From positions 1 to 64,000 of the forward strand of contig CABZPR010000005.1 in NCBI GenBank assembly GCA_902527545.1: DNA of 64,000 nt, given 5' to 3'. The DNA is from an uncultured Alphaproteobacteria bacterium (GTDB lineage: Bacteria > Pseudomonadota > Alphaproteobacteria > HIMB59). Of this stretch, positions 18,403-41,539 are shown one piece after another (position 1 is the first letter of the stretch; every line of letters begins with the position of its first letter). Both the position numbers and the translations under genes were made by a program. The notes beneath the pieces are model-generated. The model was not told where the DNA came from, did not search any database, and worked only from the letters and a program-made list of their open reading frames with translations.

Positions 18403-18843
18403 ATGCACAGCTATCTGGCTAGTATTAAATTGATCATTTATTTCCTGATTTTTCAGGCTTTTTTTGTAATAAAAACTTCATATTCAGATCATCTCACAGC
18501 AAAAATCACAGGTTTTGTTGATGCTTCAAGCCCAATTCACATTCTGGGGTATGATAGGAAATATTATTTCGAGGAAAATTCTGCACCTCTTTTTATTGTT
18601 GTAGAGCAGGATATAAACAAATTTAATCAGATTAATTTGAAAGCATTTCCACATATCAACATCGGCCTGTTTGCCTTTCAAGATACTGATGGAAATGGAG
18701 AATTTTCGAGAGATTTTAAAGGTCAACCTCTAGAACCATTCGGGTTTTCATTAAACCCTGATTTAAATTTTGAAGATGTTGTTTTTGAAAACATAGTTTT
18801 TGATATGACTAAATTTCAACAATTGGAAATTCGACTTAATTAA
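18403..18843 (+). CDS. Exported DUF2141-like protein
   Basis: A 146-residue protein with an N-terminal Sec-type signal (hydrophobic about residues 8-24, likely cut near YSDH). The C-terminal half, [19 protein letters not shown] followed by [14 protein letters not shown] and FEDVVF, matches the DUF2141 pattern of a D-x-D/N-G-N-G acidic loop, a GxPxEPxGFS segment and FEDA(A/V)F. The family is uncharacterised and probably adopts a beta-sandwich fold. The gene overlaps the convergent cysNC end by 8 bp. Confidence 0.7.
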
Positions 18844-20701
18844 TAATATTCAATATTTTTTTTACAGCCTTACTTAAAGAAACTTTAGAGGTATCAATTT
18901 CTAGGTCAGGATTGATAGGTTTTTCATAGATACTGTCTATCCCTGTGAAATTTGGTATTTTACCTTGTCTTGCCCTTTTATATAAACCCTTTGGATCTCT
19001 TTTTTCAGATACTTTTAAAGGAGTAGAAATATAAATTTCTTTAAAATCATTTTTTTCAAAAAGTGATCGTGCCATTTCTCTTTCTAATCTAAATGGTGAT
19101 ATAAAAGCAGTGATCACAATTAGTCCAGCGTCACACATAAGTTTTGCCACCTCTGCAACTCGCCTTATATTTTCAACTCTATCTTTGTCTGTAAAACCTA
19201 AATCTTTATTTAATCCGTGTCGAATATTGTCTCCATCAAGAATGTATGTTTTTTTACCTTGAGAGTATAATATTTTTTCTAGTTCATTAGCTATTGTGGA
19301 TTTTCCTGATCCCGAGAGACCAGTCATCCACAGCACTTGACCTTTATGACCGTTTATCTTCTCTCTTAAATTCTTATTAATGGTTAAGTTTTGAAGTTGA
19401 ATATTTTGTGATCTACGCAGAGAAAAGTTTATCATTCCCATTCCAATAGTTTGATTATTAATTGGATCAATAATTATTAAAGATCCCAAAATTTTATTTT
19501 CTTTAAAAGTCGAAAAGGGAACAGCTTTATTAAATGAGATAGAAATTTCTGCAACATCATTGAGTTTAAGTTCATTTCCAGCAGCAAATTCTAACGTATT
19601 TACATCATATATTTTTTTTATGTTCATAATTTTAATACTGGTTGAGATATTATGAATTTTCGCTAAATAAGTTCTTCCAGTAAAACCCTTATCCTCTGAC
19701 ATCCAAATAACATTCATGTTAAATTGGTCAGCCATATCAATTGTGGAGTTTTCTGAGCAGAGTATATCGCCCCTGGAGGTATCTATCTCTTTGTCTATGG
19801 TAAGTGTAACACTTTGCTTAAAATTTGCAGTTTTAAGTGATCTTTCACCTACAAAAATATCTTTTACTTTTACTTTTCGATTTGACGGAAGAGAAATTAA
19901 CTCATCACCCTTTTTAATTTTTCCCTCAGCGACGGTTCCTGAATATCCTCTAAAATTCAAATTAGGTCTATTGACACTTTGAACAGGAAGTACAAAACTG
20001 TTTGAGCTTTGTATTTTAGTTTTAGTAGTTTCTAAATAGTCAAATAGTGTTTTATCATTGTACCATTTCATGTATTTAGATTTTTTGTGAATATTATCTC
20101 CCTTAAGTGCTGATATAGGAATACTTTGAATATTTTCAAAATTTAATTTTTTTGAGAAAAAATTGTATTCAGAGCTTATTTTTTCGTAAATATTTTTATC
20201 ATAGTTAACTAAATCCATTTTATTAATTGCCAAGATAATATTTTTAATTCCAAGAAGAGATGCAATAAAAGAATGTCTCTTAGTTTGTGTAAGTATGCCA
20301 TTACGGGCATCAACCAGCAAGATAGCTAACTCAGCTGTTGAGGCCCCAGTCGCCATGTTTCTAGTATATTGCTCGTGACCTGGTGTATCTGCTACAATAA
20401 ACTTTCTTTTGTTACTTGAAAAAAATCGATATGCAACATCTATAGTAATACCTTGTTCCCTCTCAGCTGATAAACCATCGACCAGTAATGCAAAATCTAT
20501 ATTCTCACCTTGTGTTCCATATTTTTTTGAGTCGTTTTTTAATGAAGCAACTTGATCATCAAATATCATTTGAGATTCATAAAGCATCCTCCCAATTAAT
20601 GTACTTTTACCATCATCAACAGATCCACAAGTGATAAACCTTAATAGATCAAGGGAGGCTTGACTTTTTAAGTATCTGCTAATTGTACCGGCTTTATACA
20701 T
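18836..20701 (-). CDS. cysNC: Bifunctional sulfate adenylyltransferase subunit 1 / APS kinase
   Basis: Residues 1-445 form CysN, the GTPase that drives ATP sulfurylase. G1 is [16 protein letters not shown]3 [11 protein letters not shown] and G4 NKMDLV, followed by EF-Tu-like beta-barrel domains. From about residue 450 a CysC APS kinase is fused: Walker [10 protein letters not shown], then [16 protein letters not shown] and [10 protein letters not shown]. The product is PAPS. It starts directly after the cysD-fusion stop with no gap, so both subunits are co-transcribed. No PAPS reductase or sulfite reductase gene is in view. Confidence 0.95.
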
Positions 20702-22174
20702 TTAAAAATAACCATCAATTTTTTTGATTTCCATAGAGCTACTTGAATCTGTATCGATAGCTCTTCCTTGTCTTTCGGATGTTTTGGATTGAAGAAGTTC
20801 AAGAACAATGTCTTCAAGTGAATTTGCATTTGATTCAATAGCACCAGTTAAGGGATAACAACCAAGTGTTCTGAACCTAATTCTTTTTAATTCAATTTTT
20901 TCGTTAGATTGAATATTAAATCGATCATCATCTACCATAATAATCATTCCATCTCTCACGACTACAGGTCTAACTTTTGCAAAATATAAGGGAACAATTG
21001 GTATTTGTTCTTGGTAGATATATTGCCAAATATCTAATTCTGTCCAATTAGATAAGGGAAAAACCCTTGTGCTTTCATCCTTATTGACTTTAGAGTTATA
21101 TAAAGACCAAAGCTCTGGACGCTGATTTTTTGGATCCCATTGATGAGAGGGGTTTCGGAATGAAATAACCCTTTCTTTAGCTCTTGATTTCTCTTCATCT
21201 CTTCTTGCTCCACCAAAAGCAGCATCGTATTTATACTTGTCCAAGGCTTGTTTTAGACTCTGAGTTTTCATTATATCAGTGTGGAGAGCAGAGCCATGAT
21301 CAAAGGGATTAATATTTGATTTAATACCATCAGGATTAATATGTGTTATTAGCTTCATACCACTATTTTTTTCTACCCAATTTCTAAATAAATACATTTC
21401 TCGGAACTTCCATCGAGTATCAACATGTAGTAGTGGGAATGGGGGAAGACTAGGGTAAAAAGCTTTTTGAGCAAGCCTTAACATCACTGAACTATCTTTT
21501 CCTATTGAGTAAAGCATGACAGGATTTTTTGTTTCACTAACTACTTCTCTGATGATATGAATACTTTCCGCTTCTAGATCTGACAGATAACTGTTTGGAG
21601 GTAAATTAAATTTATTGTGTAGTTTTGTATCATGAATTTTGAGATCATTTATATAAAATAAATACTCAGGAAAATGAATTGAAAGTTTGAATTTATTGTT
21701 AATTTGATTTTCATCAATTTTTTGATCAAGAAAAATTTTAAGAAGATAAGCGTCTGGAAAAATAATAATATTTTTTTTTCTTAATTTTGAGAAATATTTT
21801 AAACTCTCAGAAATATCTTTTATTTTATTTGACTTAACTTTGACCCATAGTCTTCCATTACGTCTATCATTTGCAAATAAAAATTTATTATTATTTATCT
21901 CAACGTATTGGATAAACAAAATAAGTAATCTTTGTTTTTCAAATTTTTTTATGGAATCCTCATAAATTAATTTGTTTATATGGCCTGCATGTATGTTTAA
22001 AAAGCTTTCTATATTTAAATTCTCTGGAAAAATTGATATTTTTTCCAACCACCTTTCATAAGATCTTTTTGTTTTAAATAAATTTTTACTAAAAAGGAAT
22101 TTATAATGACTATCGCTATCCCAAGCTGGAAATTTTATTGATGGGTTAATTTTAAAAAATAAAGTATGATTCAT
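20702..22174 (-). CDS. cysD: Sulfate adenylyltransferase subunit 2 with unknown N-terminal domain
   Basis: The C-terminal 295 residues are a complete CysD, the ATP-pyrophosphatase subunit that adenylates sulfate: [15 protein letters not shown] (from about residue 197), PP-loop SIGKDSS (223-229), [31 protein letters not shown] and the C-terminal [15 protein letters not shown]. Ordinary CysD is about 300 residues and begins at that point. Here about 195 residues precede it in one uninterrupted frame, rich in Lys, Ile, Phe and Asn, with segments such as [15 protein letters not shown] recognise no family in this extension. A separate upstream gene plus frameshift cannot be excluded from one sequence. 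Confidence 0.9.
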
Positions 22175-22257
22175 TATAATTGACCATTTGTCGTATTATT
22201 GAAAAAAATACAAAAAATAATCTAAATGTATATAAAAAAAAGTAAAATTTTAAAAAA

Positions 22258-23022
22258 ATGACAAATAATAACATAATACGACAATTTGAGTTTTTCAATG
22301 AAATCAGTGAAAATCTTGAGTTATGTTCCCAAAAAATTCTTAATATTTATGATAACTATGATCAAAGTATTGAATTAAAAGACGATAAAAGTCCATTAAC
22401 AGAAGCAGATTTAGCATCACACGAACACATTTCTGATTTATTATCATCTATTTCAGCTTACCCCATAATTTCAGAGGAGGGTGAGCAAAAGTATACTGAT
22501 GAGCCAAAATACTGGTTAGTTGATCCTTTGGATGGTACTAAAGAATTTATCAATAAGAATGGTGAATTTACAATTAATATTGCTTTGATTAACAACAATT
22601 ATCCCACCCAAGGGTTTGTTTACATTCCAAAAGATAAGACATTATTTTTTGGGGGTCTTAATAAAGGTTCATACAAGTTATTAAATGACAATATCAAACC
22701 TATTTCTGTGCAATCACCATCCGATAAATTAAAGATTGTTACGAGCAGAAGTCATCTCAATCATGAGACTAAAACTTATTTATCTCAGTTTAATAATTTT
22801 GATACTCTTCAAGCCGGTAGTTCTTTAAAGTTTTGTATGATAGCAGAGGGTTTGGCAGACTTATATCCTAGGCTGGGACCTACTTCTGAATGGGACACTG
22901 CAGCAGCACAAGCAGTTGTAGAGGGAGCAGGTGGTACTGTAAAAGACCTAAAAGGTAATAGGTTAAAATATTCAAAGAAAGATATAATCAATTCTCATTT
23001 TATAGTTAGAGGTAAAATCTAA
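22258..23022 (+). CDS. cysQ: 3'(2'),5'-bisphosphate nucleotidase CysQ
   Basis: Hydrolyses PAP (and PAPS) to AMP, removing the by-product of PAPS use. Inositol-phosphatase-superfamily motifs are visible: DDKSPLTEADLASH, the metal-binding PIISEEGE, DPLDGTKEF and SEWDTAAAQAVVEGAGG. The length of 254 is typical. It is divergent from the cysD-fusion/cysNC operon across an 83-bp gap, so sulfate activation and PAP removal sit side by side. Confidence 0.94.
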   Translation: MTNNNIIRQFEFFNEISENLELCSQKILNIYDNYDQSIELKDDKSPLTEADLASHEHISDLLSSISAYPIISEEGEQKYTDEPKYWLVDPLDGTKEFINKNGEFTINIALINNNYPTQGFVYIPKDKTLFFGGLNKGSYKLLNDNIKPISVQSPSDKLKIVTSRSHLNHETKTYLSQFNNFDTLQAGSSLKFCMIAEGLADLYPRLGPTSEWDTAAAQAVVEGAGGTVKDLKGNRLKYSKKDIINSHFIVRGKI

Positions 23023-40193: not shown

Positions 40194-40222
40194 TTGACTT
40201 ATTAATAGTGTTATATTATTAC
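40194..40222 (+). promoter_or_regulatory. Probable znuA promoter overlapping the Zur site
   Basis: TTGACT (40194-40199) and TATTAC (40217-40222) are spaced 17 bp and the -10 falls within the palindrome at 40209-40240. A bound Zur dimer would therefore cover the -10 region, the usual way of repression. Inferred from position and sequence only. Confidence 0.45.
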
Positions 40223-40240
40223 ATATGTAATAGTATAACA
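40209..40240. promoter_or_regulatory. Zur operator candidate (32-bp near-perfect palindrome)
   Basis: The left arm TGTTATATTATTACAT and right arm ATGTAATAGTATAACA are reverse complements except at one position pair. It lies between divergent znuC (23 bp away) and znuA (19 bp to ATG). The pattern TGTTATA...TATAACA with an inner TATTACATATGTAATA resembles Zur boxes of Gram-negative bacteria (GTTATAnnATAAC type). Location, symmetry and the presence of a zur gene in the same operon all point to zinc-dependent control. Confidence 0.8.
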
Positions 40241-40258
40241 TTAGAGGTGGTAATTAAT

Positions 40259-41539
40259 ATGAATTTTTTCAAAAGATCAATATTTTTCGGACTTTCTTTT
40301 TTATTTTTAAGTTTTAATTCTCATGCAGATGTGAAAACGGACATTAAAGTAGTCACTACAATAAAGCCTTTGCATTCATTGATATCAAGAATTATGGAAA
40401 CAAGAGGAGAACCTCAATTAATTATTGAAGGTACAAATAATCCTCACACATTTGTTTTTAAACCATCTCATGCAAAAATGATTGAAGAAGCTGATATTAT
40501 TTTTTGGATTGGCGAGGATTTAGAGGCTTTTATGGAAAAACCTTTAGACTCACTTGCTGAGAAAGCACAAGTTATTTCATTTATGGAGCTATCATCTATA
40601 GAAAAATTAAAATTTAGAGAAAAAAATATTTTTGATGATCATGATGGCCATGAAGATGAACATGAAGGCCATGAGGATGAGGATGATCATGGTCACAAGG
40701 ACGACGATCACGATGATGATCATGATGGCCATGAAGATGAACATGAAGGCCATGAGGATGAGGATGATCATGGTCACAAGGACGACGATCACGATGATGA
40801 TCATGATGGCCATGAAGATGAACATGAAGGCCATGAGGATGAGGATGATCATGGTCACAAGGACGACGATCACGATGATGATCATGATGGCCATGAAGAT
40901 GAACATGAAGGCCATGAGGATGAGGATGATCATGGTCACAAGGACGACGATCACGATGATGATCATGATGGCCATGAAGATGAACATGAAGGTCACGATG
41001 ACGATCACAAGGACGCACATGCGCATGCACACGGTGAGTTTGATCCACACATTTGGCTAGACCCAGAAAATGCTAAAGAAATGGTTAAAATTATCCGAGA
41101 CGAATTAATTAAAATAGATCCAGATGGTCAAAGACAATATTCAGTTAATACTGCAGGGGCAACATTGGAACTAGATAATTTAATCAATAGTGTAGAAAAA
41201 GAATTATCAAAAGATATTAGCTATATTGTATTTCACGATGCTTACCAATATTTTGAGAATAGATTTGGAGTAATTCCTGCTGGAGCATTGACTTTAAATC
41301 CAGATGTTTTACCAGGAGCTAAACAAATAGCAGATATACAAGATGTTATAAATGACAAAGGTATTAAATGTATTTTTTCTGAACCTCAATATAATCCAAA
41401 AATAATTGAAACTATCGGGAATGATATGAAAATTTCTACTGGTGTAATGGATCCTTTGGGAGCTTATATAGATGCTGGACCTTCAATGTATAGTGATCTA
41501 ATTAATGGAATTGCAAATTCAATTAAAGATTGTCACTAA
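40259..41539 (+). CDS. znuA: Zinc ABC transporter substrate-binding protein ZnuA
   Basis: Periplasmic zinc-binding lipocalin-free cluster A-I protein, 426 aa from ATG 40259, which follows an AGAGGTGG site. A signal peptide (about residues 1-23, ending NSHA) is followed by the N-lobe with first ligand His in NNPHTFVFKPSHAKMI. A very long Asp/His/Glu/Gly-rich loop comes next (about residues 124-260), then DPHIWLDPENAKEM, VFHDAYQYF and FSEPQYNPKIIE of the C-lobe. Zinc ZnuAs have such loops but usually of about 20-40 residues; here it is about 135, made by tandem 27-residue units. A longer frame upstream (from 40208) crosses the operator and is not likely translated. Confidence 0.93.
   Translation: MNFFKRSIFFGLSFLFLSFNSHADVKTDIKVVTTIKPLHSLISRIMETRGEPQLIIEGTNNPHTFVFKPSHAKMIEEADIIFWIGEDLEAFMEKPLDSLAEKAQVISFMELSSIEKLKFREKNIFDDHDGHEDEHEGHEDEDDHGHKDDDHDDDHDGHEDEHEGHEDEDDHGHKDDDHDDDHDGHEDEHEGHEDEDDHGHKDDDHDDDHDGHEDEHEGHEDEDDHGHKDDDHDDDHDGHEDEHEGHDDDHKDAHAHAHGEFDPHIWLDPENAKEMVKIIRDELIKIDPDGQRQYSVNTAGATLELDNLINSVEKELSKDISYIVFHDAYQYFENRFGVIPAGALTLNPDVLPGAKQIADIQDVINDKGIKCIFSEPQYNPKIIETIGNDMKISTGVMDPLGAYIDAGPSMYSDLINGIANSIKDCH
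40634..40992 (+). repeat. 81-bp tandem repeat in znuA (4 identical copies plus partial fifth)
   Basis: Units begin at 40634, 40715, 40796 and 40877 and are identical base for base; a fifth matches for 35 bases from 40958 before diverging. Each encodes 27 residues with pattern DDHDGHEDEHEGHEDEDDHG followed by HKDDDHD. Because the unit length is a multiple of three, frame is kept and several other frames stay open too, producing long spurious ORFs on both strands. Confidence 0.95.

Follow-up and report, generated by a model that had tools for sequence, protein, structure and literature searches.

A complete CysD behind an undescribed N-terminal domain

The question raised by this locus is what some 195 residues of no known family are doing in front of a CysD. 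In the window, by which we mean the whole 64-kb stretch of DNA analysed, positions 20702–22174 of the minus strand form a single 490-aa frame in the ORF list, supported by family models and by the genomes of the genus, in which an N-terminal domain (residues 1–196; 21587–22174, minus strand) precedes the catalytic part of CysD (residues 197–490 plus the stop codon; 20702–21586, minus strand). Residues 193–490 matched CysD models along their length and above every cut-off (NF009214, 498 bits; NF003587, 464 bits; TIGR02039, 484 bits against a cut-off of 396.6, over positions 1–294 of 294), and S223, G225, K226, D227 and S228 of the SxGKDS motif, presumably the PP-loop motif of CysD, were invariant in 11 aligned fusions; judged from these features, the enzyme part is intact. 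CysNC (bifunctional CysN/APS kinase; 18836–20701, minus strand; NF004035, 895 bits) adjoins the fused cysD downstream and a cysQ identified by eye (22258–23022, plus strand) runs divergently. The original prediction of a complete CysD beginning at about residue 197, fused to residues of no known family and sharing an operon with cysNC beside a divergent cysQ, was borne out. In the genus of the window, the fusion has housekeeping genes as neighbours. Elsewhere in the window, an ORF resembling zinc-binding proteins (40208–41539, plus strand) contains a long repeated stretch rich in His, Asp and Glu.

An assembly join or frameshift near residue 195 is ruled out by the related genomes, where the recurrence that had been set as a test of the fusion was found: 28 of the 36 other genomes of the genus (HIMB59/AEGEAN-169 type) carry it whole, as a single frame with no stop, starting at residue 1 (in two cases at 2 or 4) and ending at residue 490, while three of the remaining eight have pieces cut by contig ends and five have no match. 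Among the starts listed (the first four to eight per locus), L007, L028 and L032/L079 have a start codon near the CysD boundary, so the loci do not have an internal start in common. In its title, PMC10308909 treats HIMB59 and AEGEAN-169 as the same, and a term search of its text returned no mention of sulfur, sulfate or cysD.

Distribution and selection

In the sister family, 11 of 23 genomes encode a CysD, in every case lacking the N-terminal domain. Profile searches with the domain gave matches in 7 of 81 relatives of G270, 6 of 385 genomes of the class, 3 of 398 of the phylum, 3 of 93 relatives of G495 and 3 of 149 relatives of G688, these five sets overlapping one another and including the centre genomes and members of the genus. 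Outside the genus, all 13 genomes with a domain match had it on a CysD frame. Two class-wide matches (L041, L042) were set aside as chance-like, one having stops inside it and the other lying in an unrelated 668-aa frame. When 80 chosen genomes were searched for CysD, the short fusion turned up in 17, among them G395, G407, G409 and G411, whose fusions the domain profile had missed. The short fusion is patchily distributed in other Alphaproteobacteria and in another class. Neighbours were read for 12 distant fusions: 11 are followed directly by CysNC, and the remaining one is at a contig end. A second CysD is encoded elsewhere in G607, G688, G937 and G944. No relatives of the domain were found in the phage records, plasmid records or viral contigs searched.

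In a tree of 56 CysD cores, from which the N-terminal domain was excluded (L188, L190, L205 and L208 had no usable core), all 23 short fusions formed one clade (bootstrap/SH-aLRT 100/99). In pairs of short fusions, which share members, dN/dS was 0.11–0.35 for the N-terminal domain (11 of 12 pairs with a defined value) and 0.03–0.10 for the CysD part (10 of 12 defined). The N-terminal domain is under purifying selection.

Family and predicted fold of the domain

Searched alone, the first 195 residues had no match up to E 10 in Pfam, NCBIfam or PDB sequences, and scans of 14 or 22 N-terminal domains against Pfam, PHROGs and NCBIfam gave scattered weak matches, none common to more than two members. 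On these searches the domain is a new, undescribed family. None of the DNA-binding families in the scans matched it, which counts against autoregulation. A PDB profile match to Helicobacter HP0242 constructs (E 1.1e-4, helices only) was rejected as a helical resemblance.

AlphaFold models anchored on the window sequence (pLDDT 85.8, pTM 0.80) and on L092 from another class (pLDDT 89.6, pTM 0.82) concur in a series of helices, then three strands, a helix, a strand and a helix. The predicted helices of residues 17–80 (21935–22126, minus strand), whose elements recur in the second model, include a possible helix-turn-helix, assigned by eye from the topology. With both models, structure searches matched residues 82–171 approximately (21662–21931, minus strand) to integrase and other RNase H-like cores, the best match in each case being the HIV-1 integrase core (window model, Z 6.8, rmsd 2.5, 82 residues aligned; L092 model, Z 7.2, 77 aligned), in both cases below the level of Z 8 under which a match may be merely a common arrangement. 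Foldseek at E ≤ 0.001 gave one match for the window model and none for the L092 model, and against viral models nothing at that threshold; absence of a family from the fold lists was not taken as exclusion. The profile and structure searches proposed at the outset for the first 195 residues yielded no family and a weak RNase H/integrase-like resemblance, with Z about 7.

Among 22 aligned members, the only invariant acids are, with placement by eye, E41 in a helix and D105 in a hairpin (NDxRxxRxW), and no acid of the catalytic triad of IS630 or DDE transposases is conserved. With two invariant acids, one in a helix and one in a hairpin, catalysis seems unlikely.

A second, IS630-type fusion

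A different extension of about 340 residues precedes CysD in G885, G898 and G902 (L153, L155, L156). That of L153 matches HTH_29 and HTH_23 and, weakly, DDE_3, and this type of extension resembles IS630 transposases in 77 plasmid records, six of them over at least 80% of its length and all at below 60% identity. Two of the three catalytic acids appear by eye to have been lost, and dN/dS values of 0.14 and 0.23 in two pairs indicate purifying selection on the extension. A helix-turn-helix part precedes an RNase H-like part, an order also predicted for the short domain (the former by eye, the latter from the weak fold match), and, as in the short fusion, the whole is joined to the N-terminus of a CysD beside a divergent cysQ and a downstream cysNC (neighbourhoods L202, L203). 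The short domain differs from the IS630 type in having no family match, no significant profile similarity and a separate CysD clade. The IS630-fused CysDs formed their own clade in the core tree, and a branch joining the short fusions with five stand-alone CysDs to the exclusion of the IS630-fused ones had support of 81/91; that the two fusions arose separately is the simplest reading and a probable one.

IS630 ancestry of the short domain may be entertained at most: judged by eye, the two resemble each other in the order and spacing of their elements, but the profile similarity is not significant. None of the 22 short domains matched a transposase or DDE model of Pfam at E ≤ 1, and the profile–profile comparison with IS630 (P 0.012–0.061; one of 150 column shuffles as high) scored 22.6 against 22.3 for the best of 15 unrelated decoys. 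In G886, G888, G895 and G937, CysD matches of the stand-alone type lie in open frames of 417–432 aa, which may hold true extensions or simply upstream sequence that happens to be open.

Paired inverted sites at the start of the fused gene

Two inward-facing sites, which do not figure in the earlier reading of the window, flank the region between cysD and the divergent cysQ. Site 1, beginning TTGTCGTATT (22188–22202, plus strand), lies 14–23 bases upstream of the cysD start codon; site 2, its inverted copy (22270–22284, minus strand), lies inside codons 5–9 of cysQ, with a 7-mer spacing of 88 bp to site 1. The facing sites have the consensus TTGTCGYAAT, and the aligned cysQ/cysD region of 12 genus members shows a motif resembling AATACGACA in two copies that face each other. 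In the 64-kb window the exact 9-mer is found at two places, both at cysQ/cysD (0.25 expected; two copies in 3 of 100 shuffles); the 10-mer with one mismatch was no scarcer there than expected by chance (7 copies against 5.1). Of 37 genus loci, 35 have both arms, and the 7-mer occurs a further 20 times in 441,625 bases; the related TTGTCGCAAT / ATTGCGACAA occur in most distant fused loci. A promoter scan gave seven consensus matches against 1.7 expected.

The pair was scored in 21 of the 23 short fusions of the tree, omitting L085/L106, whose start was not located, and L152, which lies at a contig end, with a matrix built each time without the lineage under test. At spacings of 30–159 bp, the best inverted pair fell at 87–89 bp in 17 of the 21 loci, covering 8 of 10 lineages. 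The score observed at 85–90 bp was reached by none of 200 shuffles in 19 loci, by one of 200 at L104 and by 116 of 200 at L103. The exceptions were L024, where 80 bp was preferred (14.0 against 11.3 at 88 bp), L102, where 79 bp was nearly tied with 88 bp (26.7 against 26.3), L105, whose pair was weak, and L103, which had none.

Control loci (other cysDs and other gene starts) were scored with the matrix from all lineages. No pair at 85–90 bp was found at 15 stand-alone cysDs (best score 0.9) or at the three IS630-fused cysDs (scores below −12), the latter differing in this respect too from the short fusion. Of 169 other gene starts, two exceeded 10, both of them cysQ starts of the same divergent region, and the next scored 8.6. 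At spacings of 80–96 bp, the cysQ/cysD pair, with a score of 32.0, was the sole pair of at least 13 in the window; pairs of at least 13 away from the fused gene start occurred at L036 (17.6 at 96 bp), L112 (15.1 at 96 bp), L108 (13.6 at 90 bp) and L109 (13.6 at 85 bp). In viral contigs, the exact pair pattern at spacings of 81–95 bp was found nowhere at 87–89 bp; four stretches had a spacing of 92 or 94 bp, all inside open frames and three of them copies of one gene. With 17 of 21 fused loci against none of 18 other cysD loci, the operator-like site pair is tied to the fused domain.

The spacing stays constant while the distance to the cysD ATG varies, and some lineages have an arm inside cysD or cysQ codons, which favours a role at the DNA level, in the geometry of a protein–DNA complex. 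The locus of G406 (L103/L083), the sole fused one with no pair, departs by eye at R42, R83 and R107, which belong to the five domain residues that hardly vary, a correspondence seen in this one case. Counting for autoregulation, the isoelectric point exceeds 8 in 18 of 22 N-terminal domains; counting against it, the other four have values of 6.2–7.3, the CysD cores of the fusions having a median of 6.9, with 7 of 23 above 8. Three of the four loci with neutral or acidic domains score a pair at 86–88 bp with the full matrix; at the fourth the pair is weak when its own lineage is omitted from the matrix.

A site lies over or inside the first codons of cysQ in the window (22270–22284) and at the cysQ starts of L099, L108, L109 and L112. 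The CysQ proteins with a site in their first codons share R-Q or R-H near the N-terminus, which may reflect the DNA site.

A proposed self-regulating enzyme and its alternatives

Where CysD is fused, facing motifs about 88 bases apart nearly always stand at the start of its gene, which suggests possible control of the gene by its own product. The helical part of the domain, with its possible helix-turn-helix, and the catalytically empty RNase H/integrase-like core may together recognise two inward-facing TTGTCGYAAT sites; both sites, 87–89 bp apart, would be bound jointly by looping or bridging, with the effect of repressing or tuning the PAPS module (cysD-cysNC and, in the window, cysQ) at the level of transcription. 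The signal may be the state of the CysD/CysNC complex or of its nucleotides (ATP, APS, PAPS), and the PAPS would be used for sulfation rather than reduction. That the fused CysD regulates its own PAPS operon through the N-terminal domain, a proposal founded on sequence, we regard as evenly balanced between belief and doubt. For it speak the site pair with its constant spacing, the scarcity of such pairs at other gene starts, the single clade of the fusions and purifying selection on the domain; the weak fold match, the exceptions among the 21 loci and the high-scoring pairs at other places speak against. Among the roles first offered for the domain, the regulatory one is the best supported, because the paired sites stand at the gene start; a link of the domain itself to a sulfotransferase, or channelling of sulfate by it, gained no support. 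We put forward more tentatively, and with more doubt than belief, a fuller account: an ATP sulfurylase subunit would have absorbed an integrase/transposase-like domain that has lost catalysis but keeps its hold on two inverted sites resembling terminal repeats, 88 bp apart and now at its own promoter, and the resulting CysD would regulate itself within a PAPS-for-sulfation operon, in marine bacterioplankton and elsewhere.

A separate transcription factor might instead bind the paired sites, the N-terminal domain being a structural or channelling part of the CysD–CysNC complex that shares only the history of the locus. The CysNC that directly follows 11 of the 12 distant fusions read would suit such a part, a LysR-type gene lies near the G270 fusion (by eye), and binding by the domain itself is something that we infer. 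Against this, no regulator gene is common to the neighbourhoods read (by eye), and site pair and domain occur together across 10 lineages with one clear exception; we consider a separate factor unlikely, if still credible. It is improbable that the domain is a decayed integrase or transposase module and the pair a remnant of element ends, neither now regulatory: the integrase-like fold, the inward-facing inverted repeats and the existence of another CysD fusion with an IS630-type transposase would fit, but purifying selection on the domain and a site spacing kept across distant lineages are unexpected of remnants, and the IS630-like profile similarity is not significant. Least of all do we expect a role for the arms in RNA, whether as a leader structure or as a stem formed over a long range: although both pair in the folded single strand of the region, the fold energy is no better than that of shuffles (z −0.18) and the window arms lie in cysQ and upstream of cysD, so that any transcript begun between them would contain a single arm.

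If control by the fused CysD is real, a sulfate-activating enzyme itself carries a domain that reads operators at its own gene, directly linking sulfate activation to gene control, and the new family offers a sharp and cheap test in the binding of the sites and the role of their 88-bp spacing.

Comparison with known systems

PutA, BirA and NadR are metabolic enzymes that regulate their own genes. The fused CysD would resemble them in combining an enzyme with proposed gene control in one protein, and differs in its enzyme, its domain and a site pair 88 bp apart, binding being what we infer here. No description of a self-regulating fused CysD was found in open-licence PMC papers, and the motif returned only papers that their titles and the opening lines of their abstracts indicate to be unrelated.

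In the M. tuberculosis (Mycobacterium tuberculosis) CysD–CysNC complex, CysD makes APS with energy from CysN and CysC makes PAPS (PMC4373884), a division of labour to which the present module is likened; the excerpted text of that source mentions no N-terminal domain of this kind. PMC6113621, in its excerpted text, describes binding of APS by Cbl of E. coli and an effect of PAPS on exopolysaccharide genes in Vibrio vulnificus; there, sulfate-activation nucleotides influence gene expression, as the proposal here would have it, and surface polysaccharide, but the regulators named are separate proteins. The sulfated-capsule cluster of Cobetia marina has a cysNC-cysD-cysQ-permease set (PMC11766843, in excerpt). 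Compared by description only, the likeness extends to CysD, CysNC and CysQ, to a permease in some fused loci (TauE family in G688) and to polysaccharide and sulfotransferase neighbours at several distant fused loci; that excerpt mentions neither an N-terminal extension of CysD nor paired sites.

Use of PAPS

The original prediction offered a link of PAPS synthesis to a particular sulfotransferase as one role of the domain, and a search for cysH and sulfotransferase genes elsewhere in the genome. In 24 genomes of the genus, many incomplete and including the source assembly (87% complete), no PF01507 match other than CysD rose above the cut-off; sub-threshold matches sit in frames of 514–530 aa, which we take to be GMP synthase. 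The source genome encodes a 541-aa TPR-sulfotransferase, and Sulfotransfer_3 is matched in 25 of 29 genomes of the genus. Table 3 of PMC5069961 lists cysD, cysN and cysQ for HIMB59 and no cysH, cysI or cysJ. Given that no cysH was found and that a TPR-sulfotransferase is present, PAPS from the module probably serves sulfation, not reduction, and supply of PAPS by the module to a sulfotransferase gains support. CysD, CysNC and CysQ (by eye) stand together in the window, as in a PAPS-for-sulfation module. Several distant fusions lie among polysaccharide genes, the nucleotide-sugar and aminotransferase families being Pfam-confirmed at L101, L108 and L109 and the rest read by eye, with a sulfotransferase nearby at L101 and a TPR-sulfotransferase at L100. 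A TauE/SafE-type permease adjoins cysQ beside the fused CysD at L107 (7740–8540), L108 (10937–11716, the one of the three checked with Pfam) and L109 (11129–11917).
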